Shown: positions 45,510 through 64,000 of the stretch, in pieces
Position numbering within the stretch: position 1 is the first letter of the stretch
Layout of the letters: each line of letters begins with the position of its first letter
NCBI GenBank assembly: GCA_905478765.1
Contig: CAJQJY010000003.1
Coordinates: 74,488-138,487, forward strand
Direction: 5' to 3'
Source of the DNA: an uncultured Flavobacteriales bacterium
GTDB lineage: Bacteria; Bacteroidota; Bacteroidia; Flavobacteriales; BACL11
DNA: 64,000 nucleotides
Notes under the pieces: model-generated
Told to the model about the DNA's origin: nothing
What the model saw: the letters and a program-made list of their open reading frames with translations, nothing else
The model's database searches: none
Translations under genes and position numbers: made by a program

Positions 45510-48014
45510 TTGAAGCTTATAGCCATTAAAATATTTCTATTTCTATTCTTATTAACAGTATTTTGTAATAATTTATTAGCGAATATTATTCATATAAGTT
45601 CTGATACGATTGTAGAGAACGCTGCTTTTTTTGATGATGAAATAAAACAATTTGCTGAAGATTCTTTAAAATTAAGTATTGATGGTGCAAAAGCATTTTT
45701 ATATGGAAATGCAAAAATTGAATATCAAAAAACAATTATTACAGCATCATATATAGAGATTGATTGGATTAAAAATACAATCTACGCATGCACCACTGCT
45801 GATTCTTTAGGCAACAAAATAGGACACCCGGTATTTAAAGAAGGTAATGATAGTTTTAAAGCTCATGAGATGACTTACAATTTTAAAACTAAAAAATGTA
45901 GCGTTAAAAAAATATCATCAAAAGAAGGTGAAGGGTATATTTTAGGTAAAACTGTAAAGAAAGTGGATGATGATATTTTTTTCTTAAACAAAGGAGATTA
46001 CACTACTTGTAATCATGAAAAACCACATTTTTCAATTAGATCAAATAGGATTAAAATTGTACCTGGTAAAAAAATTATTACTGGACCTGCTTACCTAACT
46101 TTTTTTGGCATCCCTACTCCTCTAATACTTCCATTTGGTTATTTCCCTAATAATGATAAAAAAAGTTCGGGTTTAATCATACCATCATATGGAGAATCAC
46201 AAAATCAAGGTTTTTTCTTAAAAGATGGGGGTTATTATTTTACCCTTAGTGATAAACTCGATCTTACCTTAAAGAGTGATGTATATACCAAAGGAAGTTG
46301 GAATTTCAAATCTAGTTTGAGGTATAAGAATAGATATAAATACAATGGAAATCTGAATTTAAGTTTTGGGAAAATGATAAATAGCGAATTAGGTTTTCCT
46401 GATTATAGCGAAAAGAAAGATTTCAATATTAAATGGAAACACAAGCAAGACCAAAAAGCTAATCCTTCTTTAAGTTTCTCAGCAAATGTAGAGGCTGGTA
46501 GTAGCACTTACTACAGAAACAACTCTTACAATGCTAATGATTACCTTAAAAATACAATGTCATCTAGTATTAATTTATCAAAAAGATGGGAAGGAGCAGT
46601 TATTAATAATCTAATTTTTAACTTAAGGCACAGTCAAAATACTTCTACAAATCAAGTAAATTTAACTATTCCTGATATTGGACTAAGCTCAAAACGAATT
46701 TACCCATTTAAAGGAATTGGGAATAAGTCAAAAACTCAATGGTACGACAAGATTACGATTAAATATAATATGAGTACTAAAAACACTATTTCAACTTCAG
46801 ATTCTCTTCTGTTTACAAGTGATTCGTATTCTAAATTCAAAAATGGAATGAAGCATACTATTCCTGTTTCTACTTCATTAAAAGTGTTAAAACACTTTAC
46901 ACTTACCCCTAGTTTTAATTTATCTGAAAGGTGGTATTTATCACAAATCAATAAAAGTTGGGATTCAAATATAGATAATATAAGAATTGATACAATTAAT
47001 AAATTTACTAGAGCCCATGATTATAATTTATCAGCTGGATTAAATACTAAAATTTTCGGTTTAGTTCAGTTTAAAAAAAGTAAGATAGCTGGAATAAGAC
47101 ACGTAATCAGTCCAAATTTATCTTTTAGATATACTCCAGATTTTTCTGAAGAAAAATATGGATATTATAAAACTGTACAGAGAGATACTGAAGGCAATAC
47201 GGAAACTTATTCTATCATGAAAGATGGAGTGTACGGAACTCCTGGAAGCAGAAAAAGTGGGAATATAAGTTTTGGAATCGGAAATATTCTAGAAATGAAA
47301 GTTAGGAATAAAAAAGATTCAGTTGAAAATTTTAAAAAGATTAAATTATTAGAGAGTTTAAGTTTGAACTCCTCATATAATATCTTTGCTGACTCTTTAA
47401 ATATGAGTAATATCAGACTAAATGCAAGAACAAAATTATTTAATATTTTTGACATCACTTTCTTTAGTGATTACGACCCATACCTTACAAATGAAAGCAA
47501 AAACAATAGAATAAATCAATTTGAAATTGCAACTAACAACAGACTTGCAAGGTTAAAATCCTTTACAACTTCTATTGGAATAAATGTAAATGATAAAAGT
47601 TTCCAATCCGATAAAAAAGCCGATGATGAAAGTGAGAAAAAAGATGATATAGAAAATAGAGACTTCTACTCAGTTCCATGGAATTTAAATGCAAATTACT
47701 CTTTAAATTACAACAAGGGTCATCAGTCATCTGACTTTTCTGATACGACTCAGTCTTTAACTTTTTCAGGAAATATAAAGATCACTAAAAAATGGAAAAT
47801 TGGTTTTAGATCTGGTTATGATTTTGATGAAAAAGAACTGACTTACTCATCTGTAGATATTTATAGAGATTTGCATTGTTGGGAATTGCTTTTTAATTGG
47901 ATTCCAATTGGGTTTCATCAAAGTTATACTCTTACTATTCGAGTGAAAGCAAGTGCATTAAGAGACTTAAAATATGAAAGGAAAAGAGATTGGTTTACTC
48001 CAGATTATGATTAA
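45510..48014 (+). CDS. LptD-like outer membrane protein
   Basis: OstA-like N-terminus (AKAFLYGNAKIEYQKTIITASYIEIDW), long beta-barrel-like C-terminus, divergent from the amidase. Confidence 0.82.
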   Translation: MKLIAIKIFLFLFLLTVFCNNLLANIIHISSDTIVENAAFFDDEIKQFAEDSLKLSIDGAKAFLYGNAKIEYQKTIITASYIEIDWIKNTIYACTTADSLGNKIGHPVFKEGNDSFKAHEMTYNFKTKKCSVKKISSKEGEGYILGKTVKKVDDDIFFLNKGDYTTCNHEKPHFSIRSNRIKIVPGKKIITGPAYLTFFGIPTPLILPFGYFPNNDKKSSGLIIPSYGESQNQGFFLKDGGYYFTLSDKLDLTLKSDVYTKGSWNFKSSLRYKNRYKYNGNLNLSFGKMINSELGFPDYSEKKDFNIKWKHKQDQKANPSLSFSANVEAGSSTYYRNNSYNANDYLKNTMSSSINLSKRWEGAVINNLIFNLRHSQNTSTNQVNLTIPDIGLSSKRIYPFKGIGNKSKTQWYDKITIKYNMSTKNTISTSDSLLFTSDSYSKFKNGMKHTIPVSTSLKVLKHFTLTPSFNLSERWYLSQINKSWDSNIDNIRIDTINKFTRAHDYNLSAGLNTKIFGLVQFKKSKIAGIRHVISPNLSFRYTPDFSEEKYGYYKTVQRDTEGNTETYSIMKDGVYGTPGSRKSGNISFGIGNILEMKVRNKKDSVENFKKIKLLESLSLNSSYNIFADSLNMSNIRLNARTKLFNIFDITFFSDYDPYLTNESKNNRINQFEIATNNRLARLKSFTTSIGINVNDKSFQSDKKADDESEKKDDIENRDFYSVPWNLNANYSLNYNKGHQSSDFSDTTQSLTFSGNIKITKKWKIGFRSGYDFDEKELTYSSVDIYRDLHCWELLFNWIPIGFHQSYTLTIRVKASALRDLKYERKRDWFTPDYD

Positions 48015-48574
48015 CAAGTTAGCCAATTTTCAATCATTTCCAAACCATTCTCAGTTAATATTGACTCCGGATGGAACTGTAGTCCAATAATATCAAATTC
48101 TTTATGTTTTATTGACATTATTTTTCCTTCAAGATTCTCTGAAGTAATAGTCAATTCATTAGGAAAATTTTCTTTAGAAACAGCCCATGAATGATAATGG
48201 CCAACTTTAAATTTTGAGGGAAGATTATTAAAAACTCTAGAATTATTATAATGAATAATTTCAGAAGAAACACCATGTTTTACTTCTGATAAATTATAAA
48301 GTGATGCTCCAAAAAACTCTGCAATTGATTGTTGACCGAGACAAATTCCTAAAATAGATTTATTCTTATAGTATTGAACTAAAACTTGGTTTAGAATTGG
48401 GTGCTCTTCTGGCAACCCAGGACCTGGAGAAATTATGATTTTATCGTATTCTGAAATAAATTCAATATTAATATCTGAAGAGCTTAAAACATCCACATCT
48501 GCACAGAATTGCTGTACATAATGTTTTAGGTTATATGTAAAAGAGTCTTGATTATCAATTATTAAAACTTTCAA
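48011..48574 (-). CDS. Class I glutamine amidotransferase (PabA/TrpG-like)
   Basis: IDNQDSFTYNLKHYV, SPGPGLPEE, ILGICLGQQSIAEFFGA, LQFHPES. Confidence 0.88.
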   Translation of the reverse strand: MKVLIIDNQDSFTYNLKHYVQQFCADVDVLSSSDINIEFISEYDKIIISPGPGLPEEHPILNQVLVQYYKNKSILGICLGQQSIAEFFGASLYNLSEVKHGVSSEIIHYNNSRVFNNLPSKFKVGHYHSWAVSKENFPNELTITSENLEGKIMSIKHKEFDIIGLQFHPESILTENGLEMIENWLTC

Positions 48575-48575
48575 G

Positions 48576-49346
48576 TTAGTCCTTTGGTTTTCGAAAAAAT
48601 TGAGAAATCTTTCTGAAAGGTTTTATAAAACGTATGAAATGAGGCTTTTTAAGTCCATTTAGGTTCCAAGCAATATTATCTTCATTATTTCCTTTTAATC
48701 TGTTCCATATTGATGCATTACTCTCACCCCCAACTCTCATTTTTATTAAAATTTCTGGAATATATTCTATATTTATTTTTTCTTTATGTAACAATCGTAA
48801 AATCATTTCATAGTCAGCAGCTCTTTTTAGGCTTGTATTATATAATCCATATTTTTGGTAAATTTTTTTTCTTACAAAAAAAGTTGGGTGTGGCAGCATC
48901 CATCCTTTTTTCATAATGTTTTTTTCGAATTTTCCTGACTTCCAGTATCTAACGATTTTACTAATATCTCCTTTATTTACAAAAATTAAATCACCATATA
49001 AACAATCACAATTTGTCTCTTCAAAAACTTTTGCAACTTTTGAGAGCACATCTTGATTGTAATAAAAATCATCAGAATTTAGAATACCAATAATATCCCC
49101 AGTAGCAGCTTTTATACCCTTATTCATAGCATCATAAATACCATCATCTTTTTCCGAGACAAAGTTATCAATTTCATCTTTTTTAAAATCTAAAATATCT
49201 AAAGTCCAATCCTGAGAAGCTCCATCAATCAAAATGTATTCTTTATTTTTATAAGTTTGTGAACTAACACTATCAATAGTATGTTTTATTGTACTCTGAC
49301 TATTGTAAGATACTGTGATAATAGATATTTTTGGGTTCTTAATCAC
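48576..49346 (-). CDS. Glycosyltransferase family 2
   Basis: ISIITVSYNSQSTIKHTIDSV, LIDGASQDWTLDIL, DDGIYDAMNKGIKAATGDIIGILNSDDFY. Confidence 0.92.
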   Translation of the reverse strand: MIKNPKISIITVSYNSQSTIKHTIDSVSSQTYKNKEYILIDGASQDWTLDILDFKKDEIDNFVSEKDDGIYDAMNKGIKAATGDIIGILNSDDFYYNQDVLSKVAKVFEETNCDCLYGDLIFVNKGDISKIVRYWKSGKFEKNIMKKGWMLPHPTFFVRKKIYQKYGLYNTSLKRAADYEMILRLLHKEKINIEYIPEILIKMRVGGESNASIWNRLKGNNEDNIAWNLNGLKKPHFIRFIKPFRKISQFFRKPKD

Positions 49347-51071
49347 TTAACGTTCAACTATTACATTTTCCATTACTAACATATCCATTTTAGTTCTTAA
49401 AAAACAACCTAAAGCCTCTTCAGGTTTATTTACAATCGGCTCATTTTCGTTAAATGATGTATTTAATAAAATTGGAACACCAGATTTTTCTGCAAATTTA
49501 CTTATTAGCTTATGGTACCTAGGAGAAATATTCTTATCAACAGATTGCAACCTTCCAGTCCCATTAACATGAGTAACTGCAGGTATTTCTTTATGCTTTT
49601 CTTCTTTTATATCAAATACTTTTTCCATAAAAGGAACACTGTCTGTTTGCACAAAATAATCTTCAACAGCTTCTTTTAAGATTGAAGGAGCAAATGGTCT
49701 AAAACTTTCTCTTCTTTTAATTTTATCATTTAACAAATCTTTAGCATCTGTTCTTCTTGGATCCATAATTATTGATCTATGTCCAAGGGCTCTAGCACCA
49801 AACTCTGCTCTGCCTTGAAACCAACCTACAACTCCTCCTTCAACTAATTTATTTGATACTTTCTCAAACAATTCCTCATCAGAATAAATTTTAAAACTTA
49901 CTTCTGCTTTTTCTAATACAGCTGTAATTTCATCTTGATTTGATTTTGATCCAAAATATGCTGTAGTAATTTCCGGAAGTCTCTCTTTTTCTAAGATTTG
50001 ATTATGTAGGTACAGCGCAGAACCTACACATGTTCCTGCGTCATGACCTGCTGAGGGAATATAAATATTCTTAAAAGAAGTGTTTTCTAAGATCTTACCA
50101 ATTGCAACTGAATTCTGAGCCACTCCACCAGCTATACAAATATTTTCAGCACCAGTTTTCTTATGCAAGTGATTAAGCATATGGAAAATCACCTTTTCAG
50201 TAAATCTCTGCACTGAAGTTGCTAAATCAATATGCCATTGATCTAATTTATCACCCTTAAGTCTATTTTTTCCTAAGAGTTTACTCCATTCATCAGTAAA
50301 TAACGATTTAACTGTTGGGCTTCCTTCTTTCACATCCATTTCAACACCTTCTTTAAAATGCTTGAAATACTTCTTATTTAGCTTGAAAAATCCATCATCA
50401 GTCATTTCAAGAATTTGTTCAAGTTCTTTCAAGTATTTTGCCTCACCATATGGAGCCAATCCCATTACTTTATATTCATCTCCATAATTAGGAAAACCTA
50501 AAAACTGAGTAACAGTTGTGTAAAACACACCAAGGGAATGTGGGTAGTTGACTTCATCCAAAACTTCAAAATTGTTACTATTGCCAATTGCAGACATAGT
50601 AGAAGTGAAATCTCCAAATCCATCAATAGATAAAATAGCTGATTTCTCAAATCTAGAAGCAAAGAAAGATGAAGCGATATGACTTCTATGGTGTTCAATA
50701 TTATGAATAGTTGCTTTAATATTAGACTCTTTAAGCTCAAATAATTTTGCTAATTGACCTTTAATAGAACTAACCTTTATTGAGTTAATTAATCTATCCC
50801 AAATAGAAGAAATGCTAATTGAATTTTTAAGTGTATAAATAATTTTTTTTGAAAAATTAGCTTTAGGATCTCTTGAAATTGTTACATGATCTATATCATG
50901 AATAGAAATCCCTTCATCTTCCAAACAAAATTTAATAGCTTCTCTAGGAAAGCCTGCAAAATGCTTAATTCTTCTGAATCTTTCTTCCTCTGAAGCACAT
51001 AATACCACACCATCTTTTAACAGACAAGCGGATGAATCACCATGATATGCATTAATTCCTAAAATATACAT
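49347..51071 (-). CDS. NodU/CmcH-family carbamoyltransferase
   Basis: GINAYHGDSSACLLKDG, IEHHRSHIASSFFAS, FQGRAEFGARALGHRSIIMDPR, LLNTSFNENEPIV. Confidence 0.93.
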   Translation of the reverse strand: MYILGINAYHGDSSACLLKDGVVLCASEEERFRRIKHFAGFPREAIKFCLEDEGISIHDIDHVTISRDPKANFSKKIIYTLKNSISISSIWDRLINSIKVSSIKGQLAKLFELKESNIKATIHNIEHHRSHIASSFFASRFEKSAILSIDGFGDFTSTMSAIGNSNNFEVLDEVNYPHSLGVFYTTVTQFLGFPNYGDEYKVMGLAPYGEAKYLKELEQILEMTDDGFFKLNKKYFKHFKEGVEMDVKEGSPTVKSLFTDEWSKLLGKNRLKGDKLDQWHIDLATSVQRFTEKVIFHMLNHLHKKTGAENICIAGGVAQNSVAIGKILENTSFKNIYIPSAGHDAGTCVGSALYLHNQILEKERLPEITTAYFGSKSNQDEITAVLEKAEVSFKIYSDEELFEKVSNKLVEGGVVGWFQGRAEFGARALGHRSIIMDPRRTDAKDLLNDKIKRRESFRPFAPSILKEAVEDYFVQTDSVPFMEKVFDIKEEKHKEIPAVTHVNGTGRLQSVDKNISPRYHKLISKFAEKSGVPILLNTSFNENEPIVNKPEEALGCFLRTKMDMLVMENVIVER

Positions 51072-52229
51072 CTACTTTTTTTTAATAATTTTTAAAAATA
51101 CACTTGCAATTATTTCCCAATCATAATTAGATTTTATATAGTTTTTAATCTTATTACTATCAAAATCTTTATTTATTATATCTGAGAAACCATTAGCAAT
51201 ACTTTCCTTTTCATTGTCGACTAAAATACCACAATTATTCATTTCTAAATGCTTCCAAGGAGTTTTGTTTGAAACCACACAGGGCCTACCACAAGCTAGA
51301 GCCTCAGCAATTACAATTCCAAAACTTTCAAATTCAGATGCTAATACAAAATAATCACTATTTGAAAAGAGTATTTTTTTGTGTTTAAAATCAACTTGTC
51401 CTATCAAAAAAACTGAGTTATTAAGTTTTAATTCTAATATTTGTTGTTCTAGTTGATTTCCCATTCCATCATCGCTTCCTGCTATAATCAGTTTAGCATT
51501 TTTATCTTTTTCTAAATAGATTTCAAATGCATTTATTAAAACATCAAACTGTTTAATTTTATGTAGCCTACCCATAGAAAAGAAGATGTTTGAAATTTCG
51601 TCAAAATCTATCTCAGTATGTTTTTTTAAAATTTCTATTCTTGATTTCTTTTCAGCATTTTGAAAGGCATTGAAATCGACTCCATCATTTATAATTTCAA
51701 CATTTGCATTAGGATATTTTCTTATAATATCTTTCTTTTCAATATATGATGATGCTTGAAAAATTACATCTTTTATAAATGGTTTCACAAATATAAAAAG
51801 CCATAATTTCTTAAATTTTTTCCTTTTAAATTGTAACCCCCATTCTCCTAAACTTCCTCTTGGGCAAACAATTATTTTTTTCGTTTGAAATACACTAATA
51901 ATTAATGAGATTATTGATGTGTAATGAAAAAGGTATTGAATATAAACTACATCTGATTTTTTAATATCATTAAAAATACCAAAGAAAAAAGAAAGTGAAA
52001 AATTATTGATCAACTCTTCATGATAATATTTTACAAAAAAATTATCTTGTTTTCTCAAGTATCTATTGGTTTCAACTTCTAATCTATTTAATCCATTTGC
52101 GTTAGTTGTTGAAACATAGATTTCTACATCATTTTGAGCTAATTTATTAGATAAATCCCATGTAGCTGATATTGGACCACCATAAAAAGTTGCAGGGTAA
52201 AATGAAGAGGATACTAAACATACTCTCAT
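51072..52229 (-). CDS. Glycosyltransferase family 4
   Basis: VCPRGSLGEW, SMGRLHKIKQFDVLINAF, ESFGIVIAEALACGRPCVVSNKTPW. Confidence 0.9.
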   Translation of the reverse strand: MRVCLVSSSFYPATFYGGPISATWDLSNKLAQNDVEIYVSTTNANGLNRLEVETNRYLRKQDNFFVKYYHEELINNFSLSFFFGIFNDIKKSDVVYIQYLFHYTSIISLIISVFQTKKIIVCPRGSLGEWGLQFKRKKFKKLWLFIFVKPFIKDVIFQASSYIEKKDIIRKYPNANVEIINDGVDFNAFQNAEKKSRIEILKKHTEIDFDEISNIFFSMGRLHKIKQFDVLINAFEIYLEKDKNAKLIIAGSDDGMGNQLEQQILELKLNNSVFLIGQVDFKHKKILFSNSDYFVLASEFESFGIVIAEALACGRPCVVSNKTPWKHLEMNNCGILVDNEKESIANGFSDIINKDFDSNKIKNYIKSNYDWEIIASVFLKIIKKK

Positions 52230-52960
52230 TTTTTATAATATTTATATTTATACCAAAATGATAAAATATGATCTCCACCTTTTAAAATTGATTCAAACTC
52301 AGTTTTATTTGCAAACTGCACTAAACTTCTTCCTATTACTGAAGGGAAAACTTGATTGAAATAAAATCCTGGAATACATGAGTACTGCTTTTTATAATTT
52401 AAGGAATTAGCTATTTGAACAACTCTATTATTAAATGCACCTTCAGGAAAACAAATTGAAGAAACTTCACAACCTAAAAGGCTCTCTAATTCATGTTTAG
52501 AATCTTTTAACTCTCCTCTAATCTCTTCTTCAGAAATGTCATTTAATATTTTATGTGATTTAGTATGAGAAGATATTGTAAAAAGAGAATCATAATTAAA
52601 TTCAAGCAACTGTTGTTTATTAATATGATTCTTTTTGTTTATGTACGAAGAAATTACAAATAATTGTATTGGAATTTTTAGTTTTTTAATCAATTCGATA
52701 TTTTTAAATAAACCTAGAAATGCATCATCAAAACAAATTTCTATTTGTCCAATAGGCTTAGTGATTTCAGCAACAATCTCATAGCCATTTTCTAAGATAA
52801 TTTGAATATGGTTTTTAAAGACCTCAATTGGAGTTGACATTTCAGTATACTTTTTATCAGAATGAATATCATGATAAAAAATTACCTTACTCTTTTTCTT
52901 AAAATAAAAAAGTGAAGCAAAATTGACTATTGAAATTCTTATTCTTGTACTTAGTGCCAT
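52226..52960 (-). CDS. Polysaccharide deacetylase family protein
   Basis: IFYHDIH, IEICFDDAFLG, ISSHTKSHKIL, CFPEGAFN. Confidence 0.8.
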   Translation of the reverse strand: MALSTRIRISIVNFASLFYFKKKSKVIFYHDIHSDKKYTEMSTPIEVFKNHIQIILENGYEIVAEITKPIGQIEICFDDAFLGLFKNIELIKKLKIPIQLFVISSYINKKNHINKQQLLEFNYDSLFTISSHTKSHKILNDISEEEIRGELKDSKHELESLLGCEVSSICFPEGAFNNRVVQIANSLNYKKQYSCIPGFYFNQVFPSVIGRSLVQFANKTEFESILKGGDHILSFWYKYKYYKK

Positions 52961-54006
52961 TTTTTAACTTCATTTATTGTATTATTTAAGCAATTATTAT
53001 AGAAATCATAATTCCATACATTTTGCATCAAATCAGATCCATTTTTAGAGAAAACTTGTAGTTTTTTAGGATTATCAAATGCCTCAACCATATACTCTCC
53101 AAATTGAAGCATATCAGCTGCTACATAGCCTGTTTCTCTTCCAATTATTAAGTCAAATGTAGCTCCAACCTCTTTAGTTGCAATTACAGGTAATCCTGAT
53201 GATAATGCTTCATTTACAACCAATCCCCACGGCTCAAATATTGAAGGACAAACAAAACATGATGCGTTCTGAATTTCTTGAATAAGATCATCTGTATACT
53301 TCATTCCTAAAAACTTTACTTTTTCTGATTGATACTTCTCTATCAAATATCTCTTTTCCTCTCCGTCTCCAACTATCCTGAGCACAGCATTTAATGTGCT
53401 AAATCTTGATTTAAATACTTTAATAAGTTCTTCAACATTTTTATGTTTATGAAGTCTTCCAACATAAAGAAAACAGAAAACTTCTGGTAGAGCTTTATTC
53501 TTTTGATAAAATTTAGAATTATCAACCATCATTGGCATTAAAAATATCCTATTATCTTCCATTCCATAGTGCCTAAAAAGATCTTTATGCGAGTTGCTCC
53601 CTCCAGAAAAACCTAAAACATATTTGTTTTTAAAAATTATTGACAAATAAATCCACTTAATAAATCTTGTTATTAGATTAGTAGGGATTTGCAATTGAGT
53701 ATCAGATTCTATTGCAACGTACCTTTTATTGCAAGAAAAAATATTTAAAATAAAGGTCAGTATAAAAGGATAGTTATTATAGCCATTTACAATAATCATC
53801 TTATTTTCTTTAAATATCTTTAAAATAAACCTAATCTTATTAAAAATAGAAATCTCACTAAGCATTTCTTTATTAGATTTTGAATTAGATTTAACCAAAG
53901 TATAAGATTTTATAAAACAATAATCAATTTTATTTTTATCATAAACATTCTTTGCTAAATCTAGCGTGTAAGATGCTGGCTCGACAAAATAACAGAATAT
54001 TTTCAT
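52951..54006 (-). CDS. Glycosyltransferase family 4
   Basis: FLYVGRLHKHKNVEELIKVF, PSIFEPWGLVVNEALSSGLPVIATKEVGA. Confidence 0.9.
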   Translation of the reverse strand: MKIFCYFVEPASYTLDLAKNVYDKNKIDYCFIKSYTLVKSNSKSNKEMLSEISIFNKIRFILKIFKENKMIIVNGYNNYPFILTFILNIFSCNKRYVAIESDTQLQIPTNLITRFIKWIYLSIIFKNKYVLGFSGGSNSHKDLFRHYGMEDNRIFLMPMMVDNSKFYQKNKALPEVFCFLYVGRLHKHKNVEELIKVFKSRFSTLNAVLRIVGDGEEKRYLIEKYQSEKVKFLGMKYTDDLIQEIQNASCFVCPSIFEPWGLVVNEALSSGLPVIATKEVGATFDLIIGRETGYVAADMLQFGEYMVEAFDNPKKLQVFSKNGSDLMQNVWNYDFYNNCLNNTINEVKKWH

Positions 54007-56133: not shown

Positions 56134-57581
56134 CTTACAATCTTTACTATTTCCTTTATTTGTTTAATAAATAATACAAAGAATAACAAATATATCAGTA
56201 CAGGTGTTAGTATAATTTCTAAAACACTAAAATTATAATTAGTTATTATAGAAAAATAAAGCAATGGAATGGATAAAAGGATTAATTTTAATAAATCTGT
56301 GCTAAATGGAGATATCTTAATATTATGTTTTATGTAATAAAGTTGTGATATATTAATGAATAACATAAATCCTATAAATAATGAGACAATTGCAATCAAT
56401 TCAAATTTATTAACTAAAATTATTGCTAAAATAGTTATTAATACAGCCTTAATTGTTTGCAATTTAAGTTCCTTCTGTTCCAATCCTGCCATAATCATAA
56501 ATGTTCCTGAACTTCCTGCAAATAAAGAGATCATTCTTGCTATCAATAAACCAAATAAATATGGTTTGTATGCTAATAAATCTCCTGATTTATCATAAAG
56601 CCCTAATATCTCATCTGCAAAAATTATTATAATAATCATAAAAGGAAGAGTTATTAAATTTACAATAAAAGTTGTTTTTTTAAACAATTCATCTAGCTCA
56701 TCTATTTTCTTTTCTTTATACAATTTTGCAATTGCTGGAGCGAATACCTGATTAAGATTTTTTATTAAAAACATGGCGACACCAGTAATTGTTAATAATA
56801 TACTATAAACACCTAATTTTAAAGGAGGAAGAGCAATACTTAAAACAATTCGTAAAGACTGTGCAGAAAAGAAGTGAACTATGGCATTGGCATACATTTT
56901 TTTACCATAGGAAATCATCTTATTGTCCCAAAAAAAGTCAGGATTTACCGAATGATAAAATAGTTTAAATTCGTCCTTATTAAACTTTCTGAACAAAAGT
57001 AATAATGACAAAGAAGTTGTAAAAAGTTCAATTCCAATAAAATACAAAATATTGTTTGTGTATTGAAAAATTATAAAAGCTAATATTGCACGAATTGGTA
57101 CAGTTATCACTGTACTATATATTATTATTTCTTTTATTTTTAAAACTGATCTATATAATGCAGTAATTATTCCAGTAAATATTGAAATTGGAGTATGTAA
57201 AGCAACTAGAAAAAGTATTAATGAAAACCCATCAATATTAGTATACAAAAATCTATCCAAAAGAGGAGAAACAAAATATAGAGCTATAATTAGAATGAAA
57301 CTTAAAACAACTGAAAGTTTAAGGATTTTTGATAAAAATTGAAGTGCATATTGCTTATTTACCTTCCATAAATCAGGAAAGAATTTTACAATTACTACAG
57401 GAATTCCAAAAGTCAGAAAGACATCCATAAATGTTGAAAAGGTATGTGCTGAAACATATTTTCCCCAATTAGAAATACCAACAATATCAATTACATAAAT
57501 CTTAACAAAAAAACCAATAGCAAAAGCAAATATTGAACCCAATATTCCCCAATTAGCTTGTCTAATAATCAGTTTTAACAT
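56130..57581 (-). CDS. Polysaccharide flippase (Wzx-like)
   Basis: 12-14 TM segments with MATE/MVF-type layout, N-terminus NWGILGSIFAFAIGFFVKIYV. Confidence 0.85.
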   Translation of the reverse strand: MLKLIIRQANWGILGSIFAFAIGFFVKIYVIDIVGISNWGKYVSAHTFSTFMDVFLTFGIPVVIVKFFPDLWKVNKQYALQFLSKILKLSVVLSFILIIALYFVSPLLDRFLYTNIDGFSLILFLVALHTPISIFTGIITALYRSVLKIKEIIIYSTVITVPIRAILAFIIFQYTNNILYFIGIELFTTSLSLLLLFRKFNKDEFKLFYHSVNPDFFWDNKMISYGKKMYANAIVHFFSAQSLRIVLSIALPPLKLGVYSILLTITGVAMFLIKNLNQVFAPAIAKLYKEKKIDELDELFKKTTFIVNLITLPFMIIIIIFADEILGLYDKSGDLLAYKPYLFGLLIARMISLFAGSSGTFMIMAGLEQKELKLQTIKAVLITILAIILVNKFELIAIVSLFIGFMLFINISQLYYIKHNIKISPFSTDLLKLILLSIPLLYFSIITNYNFSVLEIILTPVLIYLLFFVLFIKQIKEIVKIVR

Positions 57582-58246
57582 CTGTAATCTAATAACTCAA
57601 AGTCATCTTTATAAATGTTTTTTACTTTTTTGACCATTTCGGTAGTATATATAGTAAAAGAAACATTTTCTTTCACATTTTTGTTATAATGTGGTAAAAT
57701 AATTTTTTTGTTTAATTTATTGGACAAAATCTTTATATGTTCTTCTAAATTCTCAAACCTACCAATATAGTCTACTAAAATTTTTCCACTGTAATCACAA
57801 ATGTATTCGTGCTGTGGCTTTAAATGAGTTATTTCTTGAATTAATTTTGAGTTTAATCCATTAATAACAAAATCTTCAAAATCTGTAAATCTAGATAAAT
57901 GTTTTTTAAAAGCAATCTCATCATATTTGTTCATTCCTCCTTTTTGTAAAAACTTATATGTAGAATAAAGCCTATCTAATGGATTTCTGATAAATGAAAA
58001 TGTAAAGTAAACATCATCCTTCATATTTAATGCCACTTTATTAAAAAAATATGATCTATGACTCTCTAATGATACTTCTCCATAAATAGCCTTTAAAATA
58101 GATACTCCTGCTGTTTTAGGTATATGTATAAATACAGTTTTAGATTGATGGAAAGCGTGTAACAAAGTTCCTTCAATATTTACTTTATTTTTTTGAGATT
58201 TTGCAAACCTCCATGTCTTATATTTATTGAATAAATATTTAAGCAT
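57575..58246 (-). CDS. Sulfotransferase (Sulfotransfer_2-like)
   Basis: KTVFIHIPKTAGVSILKAIYG, FSFIRNPLDRLYSTYKFL, IGRFENLEE. Confidence 0.82.
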   Translation of the reverse strand: MLKYLFNKYKTWRFAKSQKNKVNIEGTLLHAFHQSKTVFIHIPKTAGVSILKAIYGEVSLESHRSYFFNKVALNMKDDVYFTFSFIRNPLDRLYSTYKFLQKGGMNKYDEIAFKKHLSRFTDFEDFVINGLNSKLIQEITHLKPQHEYICDYSGKILVDYIGRFENLEEHIKILSNKLNKKIILPHYNKNVKENVSFTIYTTEMVKKVKNIYKDDFELLDYRC

Positions 58247-59372
58247 TAAATAAATCTTGTTTCAAAAAGAGAGATATTGTGTTTTTAATATCATATTTAT
58301 TGTCAAATTCAAAATTAGTTTTATTCTTCTTAAAATAAACTAACTTTTGAGACAGATTCAAAAAGTCAGACTTTAAAATTTCTGATTTTTCTTTATATAA
58401 TTTTGGTATTATTTCTGAAATTCCTTGTTTTTTTACCGAAATAAAAGGAGTTTTTGTTGCCCAAGACTCTAAATACACACAACCTAAAGCTTCATAATAT
58501 GAAGGAAGTGCAAACAAATCTATCTCGTTAAAGAATTGATTTAACTGCTCGTGTTTTATCTCATTTTCAAAGACAATAGAATCTACTAAGTTATTCTGCA
58601 AAACATACCTCTTACAACTTTCTAATGTTGGACCAGTTCCAATTAATCTTAATAAAACTCTTATTTCATGTTTTGTGAGTACCTCTACCGCTTTAATTAA
58701 AGTGATTTGGTCTTTCTCTTTCCAAAAATTTGCGACACAACCAATAGTAAACACTTCATTTTTCTTCACTTCTTTATAATAAAACTTAGATGTATCCACC
58801 CCATTATACAGAACTAATTCATTTTTTGGGCTATAACCATTAAAATCATTCAATTTATCTAAAACTAATTGTGAGACACCAATATTCAAATCAGCTTTAT
58901 TTAAATGATTTAGACTATTTTTAATAAGGAAATTCTTTTGTATTTTTTTAGTAAAACTACTTCTTCCGTTTAACAATTGTAAAACATCTAATCCATGATG
59001 TTGAACAATTTTTTTACAATCTAAATCTTCTACCAAATAAGATGCAGGATAAGTAACATGAGAATGCGAAAACTTAACACTATTTATTTTTTGTCTCTTT
59101 AAAAATTTTTTAAGTCTTAATTTATTGAAGCTATTAAATATTGCAGGGAAAATAAAAAAAGGAATATCAAGAACTTTAAAAACTGACACTCTAAATCCTT
59201 TAAAAATATAATCTTTTTCAGCAGAAAAAAATGAAACCAATTTAACAATTTCAATATGAAATTCAGATTGTTTACAAATCTCATTAATTTGGTCATAAAC
59301 ATAACTTCCAACAAAAGAATCTTCTGAAGGAAAGAATGGAGTAATCACCAGATATGTTTCTTTATTATTCAA
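58239..59372 (-). CDS. Glycosyltransferase family 4
   Basis: HHGLDVLQ, LYNGVDTSKF, IGCVANFWKEKDQITLIKAVEVL, FALPSYYEALGCVYLESWA. Confidence 0.9.
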   Translation of the reverse strand: MNNKETYLVITPFFPSEDSFVGSYVYDQINEICKQSEFHIEIVKLVSFFSAEKDYIFKGFRVSVFKVLDIPFFIFPAIFNSFNKLRLKKFLKRQKINSVKFSHSHVTYPASYLVEDLDCKKIVQHHGLDVLQLLNGRSSFTKKIQKNFLIKNSLNHLNKADLNIGVSQLVLDKLNDFNGYSPKNELVLYNGVDTSKFYYKEVKKNEVFTIGCVANFWKEKDQITLIKAVEVLTKHEIRVLLRLIGTGPTLESCKRYVLQNNLVDSIVFENEIKHEQLNQFFNEIDLFALPSYYEALGCVYLESWATKTPFISVKKQGISEIIPKLYKEKSEILKSDFLNLSQKLVYFKKNKTNFEFDNKYDIKNTISLFLKQDLFNA

Positions 59373-60189
59373 CTAAATTTGGGTATAGATTTTTAAACTT
59401 TGGAAATTTCTTCAAAACCAGATCAATAGTTTCTTTTTTTAATTCACTATTAAACTGACCTTCTACTCCACTTCTAGTAAATTCACCTTTAAACTTTCCA
59501 TTTTTGGGTCCATTTCCGTATTTTTGATTTTTTTCTTTTCCCATCTTTTTCACTTTATCAAATGATGAGAATCCAACAGATTTTCTAATTAAATTGTTGT
59601 CTAATTTCCATCCTAAAAAATTTACAGTTTTGATAAGCTCTTTTTCTGCATCATTTTTTAAATCCGAATAATTGATAACAATATCCATATTCTCCAATGA
59701 AACTCTGAAATACTTAATCCAAAAATCAATTTTATAACAAACATAAAAATCAATATCCATCAACTTATCTCTTAAATTTTTTGGATCATCAGAAAATGGA
59801 ATATCTCTGTTTTTATAAAAATAATAAGCTGAAACTAATGTGTCTAAAGGATTTCTGTGAATGAAAATTTTTTTATTAAATAATGTATAAGCTCTATTGT
59901 ACATTTTATGAGTCCTGTAAAAAAGAGGAAAATTATTTTCGGGTAAAAAAACAGTACCTCTGTCCATTACATTATTTTGTTGGATATTTAATGCATCAAA
60001 GGAAATTGTAGACTTTAAATCTGGATTATTTTGGAGGTTTAAATAATTGTATATTAAAAATCTGAACCAAGTGTTTCCACTTTTCGGATAACCAAATAAA
60101 AGAATAGAATCTTCTCTTTCTTTTAGTAAAAGATTTAGTTTATTATACGTTTTAAACCAATAATATTTATCTTTTAGATATTCTATCAT
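59365..60189 (-). CDS. Sulfotransferase (Sulfotransfer_1-like)
   Basis: LLFGYPKSGNTWFRFLIYNY (5'-PSB), IHRNPLDTLVSAYYFYKNRD, GVEGQFNSEL. Confidence 0.87.
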   Translation of the reverse strand: MIEYLKDKYYWFKTYNKLNLLLKEREDSILLFGYPKSGNTWFRFLIYNYLNLQNNPDLKSTISFDALNIQQNNVMDRGTVFLPENNFPLFYRTHKMYNRAYTLFNKKIFIHRNPLDTLVSAYYFYKNRDIPFSDDPKNLRDKLMDIDFYVCYKIDFWIKYFRVSLENMDIVINYSDLKNDAEKELIKTVNFLGWKLDNNLIRKSVGFSSFDKVKKMGKEKNQKYGNGPKNGKFKGEFTRSGVEGQFNSELKKETIDLVLKKFPKFKNLYPNLVE

Positions 60190-61220
60190 TTTAAATTATC
60201 AATTACTTTTTCCCAGGATTTTATAATTATTTTCCAATCAAATTTTTTAGCAAGTTCTAAAACATTTTTTGAATTTCTAATCATTAAATCAGGATTTTCA
60301 ATCAGATTATCAATTGTACTTTTTACTTCCGCAAAAGTTGAAACAACAAAACCATTTTCTGAATGGTTTATCCAACTATCTGCTCCATAATCATCATACA
60401 ATATTGATGGAATACCTGATGATGCAGTCTCTAAGATTACTTTCGGAAAGCCTTCAGATCTAGATAATAAAATATGCAAGTCCATATTCTGTAAATGATT
60501 TGAAATATCATAAGAATTTAATTTTCCAAAAAAAATAACATTAGTTGTTGATTTTTTTTCTAATTCGTTTTTTAGGGGACCATCTCCAATTATATTAAAT
60601 GTAATATTCTTAAAGTATTTTGCTAAATCTAAAATATCGTTAAGGTTTTTTCTTTTTATAAGACTTCCAATAAAAACCAAATTCTCAACTTTATTTTTAA
60701 CACCTTTATTCTTAAAATTATTCTTATCAACCCCAAGAAAAAGGGGGTTCTTATTTATTAAAATACCACAATTAGACGATAGAATTAAGTGTGGTGTTAT
60801 TCCGAAAACATTATGAATCATAGAGAAGTGACTTTTCATATTTTCTAAAGTTCCAAAACTCTCAATCATACTTTTCTTGCTTGTATCACACATATTTCCT
60901 TCAATAGTAGTGAAAGTTTTCTTATTTAGTAAATTAGCAATTTTTAAAGCAAGTTTAGGTGTAGATTGATGTTTTGGAAAATAACAAACATCAGCCCATA
61001 GCACACCTTTAACAAATGCATATAAATTTGAAATTTTATATCCTATATTTGATACTTTAATAAAACTTACATTATCTAATTTCTCAAGATTTTTATTTCC
61101 TAAAACGAGTGTTTTTATCGAGTACTTATTTTTATCCAGATGAAATGCAATAGATTTACAATTAATGTTTTGCGCATTAATTACATTTATATAAGCTCCT
61201 AAAAATATCTTTTTTCTCAT
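60186..61220 (-). CDS. Glycosyltransferase family 4
   Basis: LVFIGSLIKRKNLNDILDLAK, NIIGDGPLKNEL, LSRSEGFPKVILETASSGIPSILYDDYGAD. Confidence 0.88.
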   Translation of the reverse strand: MRKKIFLGAYINVINAQNINCKSIAFHLDKNKYSIKTLVLGNKNLEKLDNVSFIKVSNIGYKISNLYAFVKGVLWADVCYFPKHQSTPKLALKIANLLNKKTFTTIEGNMCDTSKKSMIESFGTLENMKSHFSMIHNVFGITPHLILSSNCGILINKNPLFLGVDKNNFKNKGVKNKVENLVFIGSLIKRKNLNDILDLAKYFKNITFNIIGDGPLKNELEKKSTTNVIFFGKLNSYDISNHLQNMDLHILLSRSEGFPKVILETASSGIPSILYDDYGADSWINHSENGFVVSTFAEVKSTIDNLIENPDLMIRNSKNVLELAKKFDWKIIIKSWEKVIDNLK

Positions 61221-62299
61221 TTTAATAATGATATAAATTTATCTTCATCATAATCAGAATAGTATTTTTTCCTCCAACTAATCACTTCATCAGAGTAATT
61301 ATTATAATCCTTTATAACATCTAGAATTTCAATATCAAAAGGATACTTAAAATCTGTTTCAAACATATTAAAATCTTCCTTTATTGATTTAAGAAAAATC
61401 GTTGGAATACCAAACTCTGCACACTCAAAAGTAGTTGTAGAATATGATGTAATATGAATAGAACAAAGTGCAAAACACTCCATTAAACTTTCTGGAGCTT
61501 TATATGTTTTCTTTTCTAATTCACTAATATCAATACAGTTATTAAACCTAGGATGATTTCTTATATAAAAATTTAGTTTTTCATTAGAATCAACTATTCT
61601 AATAATTTCATCTAACATATCTTGATTTTGATTCTCAGTATGATCTTCAGTGATTTGTAGCGTAATTAAAACTAATCTGTTTGGGTTAAAATGTCGAAAA
61701 TATTTTGATATTGCAACTCCAATTACATTAGTGTTTTTTTTATAATAATTTGTTTTATCTGATACACCTAAAATTTCTTTAAAGCCGTGCCCAAATAGTA
61801 ATAACTGAACATTATTATCTGAAATATTCGAACTTGCTTTACCATCTGAAATATAACTTTCTTTATTCGAATAGATAATACCGTGTTGTAAATCAAATAT
61901 TTCCGCTTCTTTATTTAACCCTCTAAAAAATTCAATCATAGATTGAGAAAGAACAATTACATTCTTAAATTTTAGATTTCTAAGGAGAATAAATGACAAG
62001 ATATTTGCGGAATATTTGTCTTTAAAACCAAATTTTCTAAGAAGAATAATTAAATAAAAAGGAAAGTCGAATGGAATACTGTTTTTATGCCTTTTCTTAT
62101 CAGATTTTCTGTCAGGCTCTTCAAAAACTAAATAAGAAATATTATGTTTCTTGCAACTTTCAAATAGTGGATTTAAGAATAAATTCTGACAATCTACTCC
62201 TCTATTAAAATGTTTTGGATAATAGAAAACAACATCTATTTCTTGCTTCTTTAAAAAGAGTTTTATAAAGTAGAAAAAGGAAATAAATAAACTTATCAT
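61217..62299 (-). CDS. Putative GT-B-like glycan transferase of unassigned family
   Basis: EIFDLQHGIIYSNKESYISDG, LLLFGHGFKEIL, FYIRNHPRF, SIHITSYSTTTFECAEFGIPTIFLKS resemble capsule-type GT-B donor-binding regions. Confidence 0.5.
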   Translation of the reverse strand: MISLFISFFYFIKLFLKKQEIDVVFYYPKHFNRGVDCQNLFLNPLFESCKKHNISYLVFEEPDRKSDKKRHKNSIPFDFPFYLIILLRKFGFKDKYSANILSFILLRNLKFKNVIVLSQSMIEFFRGLNKEAEIFDLQHGIIYSNKESYISDGKASSNISDNNVQLLLFGHGFKEILGVSDKTNYYKKNTNVIGVAISKYFRHFNPNRLVLITLQITEDHTENQNQDMLDEIIRIVDSNEKLNFYIRNHPRFNNCIDISELEKKTYKAPESLMECFALCSIHITSYSTTTFECAEFGIPTIFLKSIKEDFNMFETDFKYPFDIEILDVIKDYNNYSDEVISWRKKYYSDYDEDKFISLLK

Positions 62300-63069
62300 A
62301 TCTTGTAATTATAATAACTATTTAACAATTTTATTTCCTTATTACAAAACAAAATATCTTCTTCTGAAAGTTCATTTATAAAACCTCCAATTTTCGCATT
62401 TCTTACCTTTAAGTTGTTACTATCTTTTCCAAAACTAACAAAACCATCTAGCTTGTTTTCTTTTTCTTTCTTTCTCATCTTATCTGCAGTAGATTCAGAA
62501 TAAATTTTCTTAACTTTATCTTTAGAAATATCAATATTAAAAAACTTATTAATTTCAGATAAAGTTTCCACTCCATGATTTAGTAAATCTTCATACTTAA
62601 TTAATAAAAAGTCTTTAGGAACATCTTTTTGATAATACCAGAGGTTATAATATTGTATAATTCGTTTAAAACCAAGAATATCATCTTTAACAAAGTCAGA
62701 AATTGAGTTAAAAACAAACGGGTTTTTTGCTCTTTTTGTTACCTGGTGAAAATGAGAAACAACAACATCTCTAGGGTCTCTCACTAAAAATAAAACTTTT
62801 CCTCTCCTGTATATATATCTTGAAGTAAATTTAAAAAGATCAAGAGGGTTGTTTCTTGTCCCATTTTCAATAATTATCTCAGAATTATCATGTTCGTTAA
62901 ATATAAAATTTTCATTGTCTTTTAGTGGATGATTACTTTGCTGAACCATTTGTTTTAGCATGTAATTAAGCCAAGTACGGCCAGTTTTTGGAAAAGACAC
63001 TATAAAATATTGGTTTTTGGGATAATAATAAGAAAGTATAAAATCCTTTATATCCCTCCAAAATTTCAT
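62296..63069 (-). CDS. Sulfotransferase (Sulfotransfer_1-like)
   Basis: FIVSFPKTGRTWLNYMLKQM, LFLVRDPRDVVVSHFHQVTKR, IKYEDLLN. Confidence 0.88.
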   Translation of the reverse strand: MKFWRDIKDFILSYYYPKNQYFIVSFPKTGRTWLNYMLKQMVQQSNHPLKDNENFIFNEHDNSEIIIENGTRNNPLDLFKFTSRYIYRRGKVLFLVRDPRDVVVSHFHQVTKRAKNPFVFNSISDFVKDDILGFKRIIQYYNLWYYQKDVPKDFLLIKYEDLLNHGVETLSEINKFFNIDISKDKVKKIYSESTADKMRKKEKENKLDGFVSFGKDSNNLKVRNAKIGGFINELSEEDILFCNKEIKLLNSYYNYKI

Positions 63070-63070
63070 T

Positions 63071-64000
63071 TTATGAAAGTATTAATTCCACAAACTCTCT
63101 AACAACACCATCACCTCCATTACTTTTTAGTTGAATAATATTTGGAATAGATTTAATTTTAGAAACTGCATTCATTGGGCAAGCAGAAACTCCTGCATAT
63201 GATAGGATTTCAAAACAATTCACATCATCACCAATATATGCAATTTCATCTAGGGAAATTTTTTCTTTCTCACATAAATCTTTTACAATTTGTAATTTAT
63301 CCTTTGCGCCATGAAAATCAAAATCTAAACCAAGTTTCTTTGCTCTTCTTCTATTTAAATCTCTATTTTCTGTTGTAAGTATTCCTACTTTAATACCCTT
63401 TTTTTGTAACAGCTGAAACCCCATTCCGTCATATGTACAGAACTTTTTAAACTCATCTCCATTTTCAGTGTAGTACATTCCTGCATCTGTTAATACACCA
63501 TCTACATCAGATAAGAAGATTTTAATCTTTGAAAATTTTGGTGTTTTATCTTTCAATATAAACTTTTTCATTAATGATTCAGCAACAATCCAATCTTCTG
63601 GCTCATCAATTTCAGTATAAGTAAATTCTGGCATTTTATAAGTTGCAATATCTCCCGAAATTCTATTATTTGTCTTTTTTATATCTGCAACAGAAGAAAT
63701 ATAAAAAGCACCATTTTCAATTAAAGTACCTTCAAAATCTTGTCTTCTTGGTCTGTTGCATACATCGTAGTTAAGGGATTTTCCATTTCTCCAAGAAAAT
63801 CTTTTTGACAAACAGCAACTCAGAACAGTATCATGTTTTTTAAATAATTCTAAACCTTCATTAAAATGATTTTTCTGAGTAAATGGTGAAGTAGCTTGCA
63901 CCAATAAAAAAGTTTCTGATTCTGATAGATCTATTTTATTTATATATTCTAACATTACCGATTCAGTAGAAGATGAATCTTTAGAATTTTCTTCTTGTCT
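63071..64000 (-). CDS. Acylneuraminate cytidylyltransferase-like domain fused to KdsC-like HAD domain (N-terminus outside window)
   Basis: Minus frame stays open to base 64000 (RQEENSKDSSSTESVMLEYINK...). LLVQATSPFTQKNHFNEGLELF is NeuA-like; FLSDVDGVLTDAGMYYTENGDEFKKFCTYDGMGFQLLQKKGIKVGILTTENRD is KdsC-like. Confidence 0.88.
   Translation of the reverse strand, partial: RQEENSKDSSSTESVMLEYINKIDLSESETFLLVQATSPFTQKNHFNEGLELFKKHDTVLSCCLSKRFSWRNGKSLNYDVCNRPRRQDFEGTLIENGAFYISSVADIKKTNNRISGDIATYKMPEFTYTEIDEPEDWIVAESLMKKFILKDKTPKFSKIKIFLSDVDGVLTDAGMYYTENGDEFKKFCTYDGMGFQLLQKKGIKVGILTTENRDLNRRRAKKLGLDFDFHGAKDKLQIVKDLCEKEKISLDEIAYIGDDVNCFEILSYAGVSACPMNAVSKIKSIPNIIQLKSNGGDGVVREFVELILS

Follow-up and report, generated by a model that had tools for sequence, protein, structure and literature searches.

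A candidate operon for a sulfated, probably KDN-containing surface polysaccharide in an uncultured Flavobacteriales bacterium

Gene content and conservation of the operon

The window, a stretch of 64,000 nucleotides from an uncultured Flavobacteriales bacterium, ends in a run of minus-strand genes (Table 1) that an earlier note had read as a 16-gene operon for a sulfated, carbamoylated and nonulosonate-containing surface polysaccharide. All 16 open reading frames are present, neighbours abutting or overlapping by no more than 11 bp, and 15 of them (48576-64000) constitute one operon. The remaining gene (48011-48574) is a housekeeping flank and is ruled out as a glycan gene, since it still adjoins LptD at loci from which the operon is absent (L044 and L045). 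Past position 64000 the operon goes on with the full fusion gene and with NeuB, Wzc and Wza, which the note had proposed to look for there and which lie directly past the window; the Wzc-like (TIGR01007) and Wza-like (PF02563) proteins score above cutoffs and are encoded immediately upstream. Glycosyltransferase initiators, likewise proposed as a check, are encoded elsewhere in the genome, none of them in the operon: both initiating phosphoglycosyltransferases, PF02397 (with the WcaJ equivalog above its cutoff) and PF00953, are found on contig C14.

Table 1. Genes of the operon and its conserved flank in the 64,000-nucleotide window
Feature	Coordinates	Strand	Basis
PabA/TrpG-type glutamine amidotransferase, conserved flank	48011..48574	-	PF00117, 164 bits
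GT2 glycosyltransferase	48576..49346	-	PF00535, 89.5 bits
NodU/TobZ-type O-carbamoyltransferase	49347..51071	-	PF02543, 202 bits (N-terminal); PF16861, 228 bits (C-terminal Carbam_trans)
GT4 glycosyltransferase GTd	51072..52229	-	PF00534, 106.6 bits
Polysaccharide deacetylase	52226..52960	-	PF01522, 64.7 bits
GT4 glycosyltransferase GTc	52951..54006	-	PF00534, 102.3 bits
FemX/tandem-GNAT-fold acyl- or aminoacyl-transferase (predicted)	54003..55004	-	Predicted structure; no significant Pfam match
Wzy-like polymerase	54994..56133	-	PF04932, 43.9 bits
Wzx-like flippase	56130..57581	-	PF13440, 49.2 bits
ST3, Sulfotransfer_2 family	57575..58246	-	PF03567, 62.8 bits
GT4 glycosyltransferase GTb	58239..59372	-	PF00534, 69.3 bits
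ST2, Sulfotransfer_1 family	59365..60189	-	PF00685, 70.8 bits
GT4 glycosyltransferase GTa	60186..61220	-	PF00534, 80.1 bits
GTx, unclassified GT-B-fold glycosyltransferase (predicted)	61217..62299	-	No Pfam match; AF2 pLDDT 92.9; TagF and UDP-GlcNAc 2-epimerase folds
ST1, Sulfotransfer_1 family, directly downstream of nonulosonate genes	62296..63069	-	PF00685, 85.6 bits
CMP-nonulosonate synthetase fused to KDN-9-phosphatase-like HAD domain	63071..64000 (3' part; complete gene, 379 aa, L009:7559-8698)	-	PF02348, 81.6 bits

Most of the family assignments made from the sequence are borne out by Pfam, namely the deacetylase, both domains of the carbamoyltransferase, the Wzx-type flippase (PF13440/PF01943) and the Wzy-type polymerase, the last two above cutoffs. 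The carbamoyltransferase scores 129.6 bits against the NodU nodulation protein equivalog NF041651, under the cutoff of 1000, and is missing from the operons of some relatives. For the proposed FemAB/GNAT-like acyltransferase the assignment is backed by structure prediction, the AlphaFold model (AF2 pLDDT 90.3) resembling tandem-GNAT structures, with FemX as best PDB match (1xf8, E 3.2e-12, TM 0.64). The five glycosyltransferases counted in the note are those recognised by Pfam, and the count is short by one: GTx, modelled with a GT-B fold, is a sixth. GTx comes after ST1 and carries HP and S/T motifs, which made it attractive as the KDN transferase. In that role it is disfavoured, its fold being a generic one nearest to TagF and UDP-GlcNAc 2-epimerase and its gene occurring in sister-family operons that have neither nonulosonate nor sulfotransferase genes. 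The presence of GTa tracks the nonulosonate genes across loci, and it was not found in the sister-family operons lacking them; GTa follows these genes better than GTx does.

The operon recurs gene for gene across the bacterial family with its order kept, which disfavours a typical variable O-antigen locus. It also contains exchangeable slots in which sulfotransferases alternate with unrelated modules, and two relatives carry another nonulosonate pathway in place of the KDN genes.

Sulfotransferases and PAPS supply

The three P-loop proteins that had been called distinct sulfotransferases fall inside sulfotransferase families, two in PF00685 and one in PF03567, all above the profile cutoff of 22 bits. 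The 5'-PSB and 3'-PB PAPS-binding motifs are conserved columns in each alignment: H-x-PKTAG and R-x-P-x-x-RL are conserved in ST3 (10 orthologs), PKSGNTW and RNPLD are invariant in ST2 (10 orthologs), and in ST1 the invariant residues are P27, G30, R31 and W33 together with R97, P99, D101 and S105 (12 orthologs). The genome, which holds nine sulfotransferases in 1.6 Mb, encodes a complete route to PAPS, another of the suggested checks, with CysD, CysN, CysC and CysQ all above curated cutoffs; APS kinase is present in 15/15 good genomes of the family. No recognisable homolog of CysH, CysI or CysJ was found in the genome, which speaks against PAPS for cysteine synthesis, and therefore, as judged from gene content, PAPS seems to be made solely for sulfation.

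It could be argued that the sulfotransferases have lipid or small-molecule acceptors, or that they are silent, the polymer of the operon then being carboxylate-only. PF00685 also takes in non-glycan enzymes, and four relatives (L049, L054, L056 and L059) keep the KDN genes in an operon without any sulfotransferase. Such a reading is nevertheless very unlikely, given that three sulfotransferases of two Pfam families share one operon with glycosyltransferases, Wzx and Wzy, that their PAPS motifs are conserved across genera, and that no assimilatory use is apparent for the PAPS supplied; moreover, synechan and the capsule of Vibrio sp. KMM 8419 offer precedents (PMC8205485, PMC11641403).

The nonulosonate genes and the fused phosphatase

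The fusion of a cytidylyltransferase to a HAD domain, as described in the note, is confirmed by Pfam, and the sialic or nonulosonic acid predicted there can be upheld and narrowed: the sugar is most likely KDN, because the SAF domain is missing from NeuB, the fused HAD domain is KDN-9-phosphatase-like and no epimerase of NeuC type is encoded in the genome. NeuB (PF03102, 219.5 bits) is a SAF-less protein of 291 aa and the only one in the genome. A SAF-less NeuB of about 290 aa adjoins the fusion in 66/80 loci, an arrangement widespread in Bacteroidota. No match above cutoff to PF02350, the UDP-GlcNAc 2-epimerase family, and no homolog of NanE or NanK, was found in the genome, which is 98.6% complete.

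The rival possibility is that the nonulosonate is Neu5Ac, or a sugar of Leg or Pse type, with NeuB using ManNAc or ManNAc-6-phosphate from an unrecognised route or from scavenging and the HAD domain acting on Neu5Ac-9-phosphate as in animals. The best NCBIfam match of NeuB is indeed a Neu5Ac synthase model, at 187 bits far under the cutoff of 399.65, human-type enzymes produce both Neu5Ac and KDN (PMC7845648), and no type I mannose-6-phosphate isomerase was found in the genome, in which a GDP-mannose-type guanylyltransferase is present. Against it stand the lack of SAF domain, NeuC-type epimerase, NanE and NanK, and the KDN-9-phosphatase triplet described below. In addition, the relatives that have NeuC in the same operon (L185 and L190) use a long, SAF-type NeuB and a cytidylyltransferase without HAD domain. 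Taken together, a product other than KDN is unlikely.

The HAD domain reaches 170.9 bits against the KDN-9-phosphate phosphatase model NF058599, just under the cutoff of 180, and its best PDB matches are 3e81 and 4hgq. At the positions equivalent to E56/R64/K67 it carries E/R/K in 88/88 sequences (20/20 family fusions, 64/64 other fusions and 4/4 lone HADs), as opposed to R/R/T in E. coli KdsC. It also scores 121.6 bits against the YrbI/KdsC subfamily TIGR01670, above the cutoff of 106.95, and 107.1 bits against the KdsC equivalog PRK09484, under the cutoff of 208. KdsA, KdsB, KdsD and WaaA are present in the genome, and the fused domain is its only KdsC-like phosphatase. Where the fusion has been lost, a lone HAD gene persists at a locus otherwise empty of the operon; these lone genes nest in three places of the tree within the fused clade, which disfavours their being ancestral and the fusions later. 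A sole KdsC-like phosphatase that survives alone after loss of the fusion would therefore probably serve KDO synthesis too. It might be held that the domain is a plain KdsC for lipopolysaccharide KDO, any KDN-9-phosphate being dephosphorylated otherwise and only the cytidylyltransferase half being nonulosonate-related. The KDO gene set and the lone HADs agree with this, but the KDN-type triplet and the widespread fusion to a CMP-nonulosonate synthetase beside a SAF-less NeuB make it quite improbable, and a dual role in KDN and KDO synthesis accounts for both sets of facts. If confirmed, the shared HAD would clearly exemplify a single phosphatase at work in two keto-sugar pathways.

Proposed pathway and known relatives

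The reading that we favour, with a probability of about 0.7, is that the product of the operon is a Wzx/Wzy-dependent surface polysaccharide with KDN and sulfate in its repeat unit, here probably joined by carbamoyl and acyl or aminoacyl groups. The SAF-less NeuB would condense PEP and mannose-6-phosphate to KDN-9-phosphate, which the HAD half of the fusion would dephosphorylate and the cytidylyltransferase half convert to CMP-KDN. A WcaJ/WecA-type transferase may begin the repeat unit on the lipid carrier, to be lengthened by the six glycosyltransferases; ST1, ST2 and ST3 would move sulfate from PAPS, with CysDNC supplying PAPS and CysQ clearing PAP, and Wzx would flip the unit for polymerisation by Wzy and export by Wzc/Wza. 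Gene set, family-wide gene order, PAPS route and missing epimerase are read from the DNA, from which we infer KDN as the product, the choice of residues for sulfation, every linkage and the polymer as such. The failure to find a type I isomerase, the HAD score of 170.9 against 180, the possible use of that domain in KDO synthesis and the four relatives without an operon sulfotransferase count against the favoured reading. As a whole, the sulfated, nonulosonate-containing polysaccharide predicted in the earlier note is supported and withstood computational attempts at refutation.

ST1 directly follows the KDN genes in 12/19 family loci, while in 2 further loci the KDN genes lie elsewhere in the genome; it is absent from the two relatives and the outgroup with another nonulosonate pathway, and from the four sister-family loci. 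This distribution lends some support to a possible action of ST1 on KDN. That ST1 sulfates KDN itself and that the fused HAD also serves both KDN and KDO synthesis, tying two surface glycans together, is as a joint proposal a speculative one, with some chance of being right. Sulfation of KDN would provide a bacterial sulfated sialic-acid-type sugar, so far described, in the searchable literature, only from animals.

A close precedent for the nonulosonate genes is the KDN pathway of Bacteroides thetaiotaomicron (Wang et al. 2008, cited in PMC7845648). That pathway consists of a KDN-9-phosphate synthase, a HAD phosphatase and a CMP-KDN synthetase. These enzymes belong to the same families as those found here, and the HAD specificity triplet is the same; the solved phosphatase chain, however, has 164 aa and is not fused. 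The structures 3e81, 3e84 and 3e8m are those of this phosphatase. The pathway is not known to be linked to sulfotransferases.

KDN is also made by neuA/neuB in the Serratia marcescens KL1/KL2 capsule locus, where NeuB differs in having an extra isomerase/epimerase domain and sulfation is not mentioned in the accessible part of the report (PMC9000132). On the side of sulfation, the synechan (xss) exopolysaccharide of Synechocystis PCC 6803 likewise derives from a Wzx/Wzy-type operon with several glycosyltransferases and two sulfotransferases of distinct subfamilies, but it is plasmid-borne, has its own regulators and an OPX gene elsewhere on the chromosome, and its gene list, as given in the accessible text, has no nonulosonate or carbamoyltransferase genes (PMC8205485). 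The cluster for the sulfated capsule of Vibrio sp. KMM 8419, also a marine bacterium, combines sulfotransferases with cysNDC for PAPS; it differs in its ABC-transporter pathway, in a rhamnose/glucose backbone without nonulosonate, and in varying completely between strains of one species (PMC11641403). The deuterostome sialate-O-sulfotransferases WSCD1/WSCD2, animal enzymes for PAPS-dependent sulfation of sialic acids, are a possible parallel only (PMC9304399). With bacterial sulfated capsules or exopolysaccharides and KDN capsules each known separately (PMC8205485, PMC11641403, PMC9000132), describing the glycan as closer to animal or algal glycans was too strong.

Wzx/Wzy-type sulfated polysaccharides and the Bacteroides-type KDN pathway are thus already known, separately. 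The gene set probably builds a polysaccharide that has both features, sulfate and KDN; literature searches on the co-occurrence of KDN and sulfotransferases in polysaccharide loci of bacteria gave nothing relevant, and no gene cluster described from bacteria in the literature searched shows this combination. For sulfated and sialic-type sugars in environmental glycans it is often impossible to name the organism of origin; in granular sludge, KDN and sulfated glycans were found together, but sulfotransferase matches in the dominant genomes were few (PMC10483923). The operon provides marine Flavobacteriales of small genome with a concrete gene set for both chemistries, sufficiently conserved to serve as a marker, and its slot-by-slot exchanges amount to a natural experiment on the assignment of genes to decorations.

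Gene content and setting of the operon

Sixteen minus-strand ORFs had been described in the earlier note as an operon for a putative sulfated, carbamoylated, nonulosonate-containing surface polysaccharide. All of them are present, fifteen being glycan genes; the remaining one, a PabA/TrpG amidotransferase gene, is a flank, for it keeps its place next to LptD in genomes that lack the operon. Pfam supports the three sulfotransferases, the two-domain carbamoyltransferase, the deacetylase, the Wzx-like and Wzy-like membrane proteins, the cytidylyltransferase-HAD fusion, whose gene is cut by the window edge, and all five glycosyltransferases (GTs) originally counted. Two operon ORFs gave no Pfam match: the FemAB-like one, whose fold is that of FemX/tandem GNAT proteins, and GTx, whose confident GT-B fold (nearest to TagF and UDP-GlcNAc 2-epimerase) brings the GT total to six.

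Sulfotransferases, sixth glycosyltransferase and flanking gene, in window coordinates
Feature	Position	Strand	Basis
ST1, Sulfotransfer_1	62296-63069	minus	Pfam
ST2, Sulfotransfer_1	59365-60189	minus	Pfam
ST3, Sulfotransfer_2	57575-58246	minus	Pfam
GTx, GT-B fold	61217-62299	minus	no Pfam match; fold comparison
PabA/TrpG amidotransferase, flank	48011-48574	minus	kept beside LptD where operon missing

Extended beyond position 64000, the locus continues upstream with the remainder of the fusion (379 aa in full). Next come genes for a NeuB-family synthase of 291 aa, a Wzc-type kinase and a Wza-type export protein, followed by a 2-oxoacid dehydrogenase E1 gene. From Wza through the GT2 gene (48576-49346) the genes are at most 4 bp apart or share no more than 11 bp, which suggests a single transcription unit. 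Initiating transferases are present away from the operon, on contig C14 of the host genome (1.61 Mb, 20 contigs, 98.6% complete): two PF02397 proteins, of which one is a WcaJ-type transferase over cutoff, and a transferase of WecA type. Most relatives from the named collection belong to uncultured Flavobacteriales, with one 'Cryomorphaceae' MAG, and several bear isolate names that resemble those of ocean survey samples.

At the gene level the operon is real, and its reading as one for a sulfated, nonulosonate-type surface polysaccharide is supported and sharpened, KDN being the probable nonulosonate; as chemistry, the polymer, the sulfated residue and the KDN product are predictions.

The nonulosonate and the HAD phosphatase

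Four facts point to KDN as the probable nonulosonate. The closest structures to the HAD half of the fusion are the phosphatases 3e81/4hgq, of the B. thetaiotaomicron KDN-9-phosphate phosphatase, and on the KDN-9-phosphatase model this half scores 170.9 bits, slightly below the cutoff of 180. The residues E56/R64/K67 determine specificity; the equivalent positions are E/R/K in 88 of 88 fused or lone homologs examined and R/R/T in E. coli KdsC, and the PDB variant 4hgq is altered at the first of them. The operon NeuB synthase, the only NeuB copy in the host genome, is devoid of the C-terminal SAF domain, which in Neu5Ac synthases touches the N-acetyl group. In the host genome no NeuC/WecB-type epimerase over cutoff and no homolog of NanE or NanK were found; KDN requires none of these, since its synthesis starts from mannose-6-phosphate (PMC7845648, PMC8053191). 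Two relatives (L184, L185) and one outgroup operon (L190) have, in place of the KDN pair, a synthase and a cytidylyltransferase of a different type; in L185 and L190 the NeuB is long, the NeuC is a true one that exceeds its cutoff, and the cytidylyltransferase is without HAD, so that SAF plus NeuC alternate with no SAF plus HAD. The weak point of the KDN reading is that type I mannose-6-phosphate isomerase was not found in the host genome; a GDP-mannose-type guanylyltransferase is present, which implies a mannose-phosphate pool.

The KDO genes KdsA, KdsB, KdsD and WaaA are also present in the host genome, whose sole KdsC-like HAD is the HAD domain of the fusion (L009:7559-8698). About a dozen relatives have an HAD match without the cytidylyltransferase half. 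Two relatives lack the operon, and the gene order at its site is E1, HAD, PabA and LptD in one (lone HAD at L044:1492-1959) and E1, HAD and PabA in the other, the contig end cutting the rest (L045:1492-1965). When 89 HAD domains were placed in a tree, the four lone HADs examined fell in three places within the fused clade of the family. Most simply read, the HAD half may also serve KDO synthesis and would have been retained for that after loss of the KDN genes. In one relative's genome the fusion gene lies in two frames (G049:C1:807191-808329, locus L041), through either true pseudogene formation, a gene split or an error in sequencing.

Sulfation and PAPS supply

PAPS-binding motifs are kept alike in the orthologs of ST1, ST2 and ST3, and searches of the host genome yielded nine sulfotransferase genes. 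For PAPS supply, cysD, cysN, cysC and also cysQ, each over a curated cutoff, lie together in a second locus on contig C5. E. coli queries for CysH, CysI and CysJ matched nothing across almost all of the genome (taken in 20-kb pieces, with one of 3.7 kb omitted), a search that very divergent enzymes could escape and that did recover CysC, CysN and CysD; on this pattern of homologs, the sulfate activation route looks dedicated to sulfation only. Across the bacterial family, APS kinase occurs in 41 of 52 genomes (15 of the 15 good-quality ones) and PF00685 in 51 of 52. The second sulfated-glycan locus (L012:4766-17865, outside the window) holds cysD/N/C/Q beside Wzx, four sulfotransferases and GTs, together with a sugar epimerase and a weak glycoside-hydrolase-like protein; proximity of APS kinase to sulfotransferases is repeated across the family.

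Distribution and exchangeable slots

Bacterial clusters for sulfated polysaccharide have already been described (PMC8205485, PMC11641403), as have bacterial KDN capsules (PMC9000132), and sialic-acid-sulfating enzymes are described from deuterostomes (PMC9304399). Sulfated and KDN-containing glycans occur together in granular sludge, a clear gene set being missing (PMC10483923). A search that reached few subscription papers found none on KDN genes and sulfotransferases within a single bacterial operon. Many Bacteroidota, and members of a few other phyla, have the pair of NeuB and fusion, with NeuB directly upstream of the fusion in 66 of 80 fetched loci; sulfotransferases of the kinds tested are linked to it in the loci of the bacterial family, but in just one of the 64 loci from elsewhere.

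Inside the family the operon order is kept gene for gene, unlike ordinary O-antigen loci, with median identities to the host genome of 79% for NeuB, 72% for the fusion and 34-65% for the remaining glycan genes. Some slots are exchangeable. In six relatives the ST1 slot is taken by a protein of 465 aa that matches no family (L054:5875-7272, also L049, L050, L055, L056 and L059) and whose N-terminus is reminiscent of nucleotidyltransferase folds. ST3 alternates with a pair of proteins, of 203 aa and 366 aa, the larger of which matches HPr kinase weakly; the pair lies at L054:10563-12267, with counterparts in L051, L056, L057 and L059. A GT11 enzyme is inserted between Wzx and Wzy in some relatives, and the carbamoyltransferase is present in some operons and missing in others. 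At least one sulfotransferase occurs in 14 of 19 orthologous loci, the other five comprising four without any (one with a shortened operon) and one cut at a contig end. ST1 was found only in genomes carrying KDN genes, a confinement that is suggestive, although the genomes are related and their count is small.

Three sister-family operons (L187, L188, L189) share with it the frame Wza, Wzc, GTx, GTb (58239-59372 in the window), Wzy, GTc (52951-54006 in the window), GTd (51072-52229 in the window), PabA and LptD, and neither KDN genes nor sulfotransferases are present in them, as checked at the operon only. Judged from this frame, the KDN genes and sulfotransferases look like later insertions, unless they were lost in the sister family.
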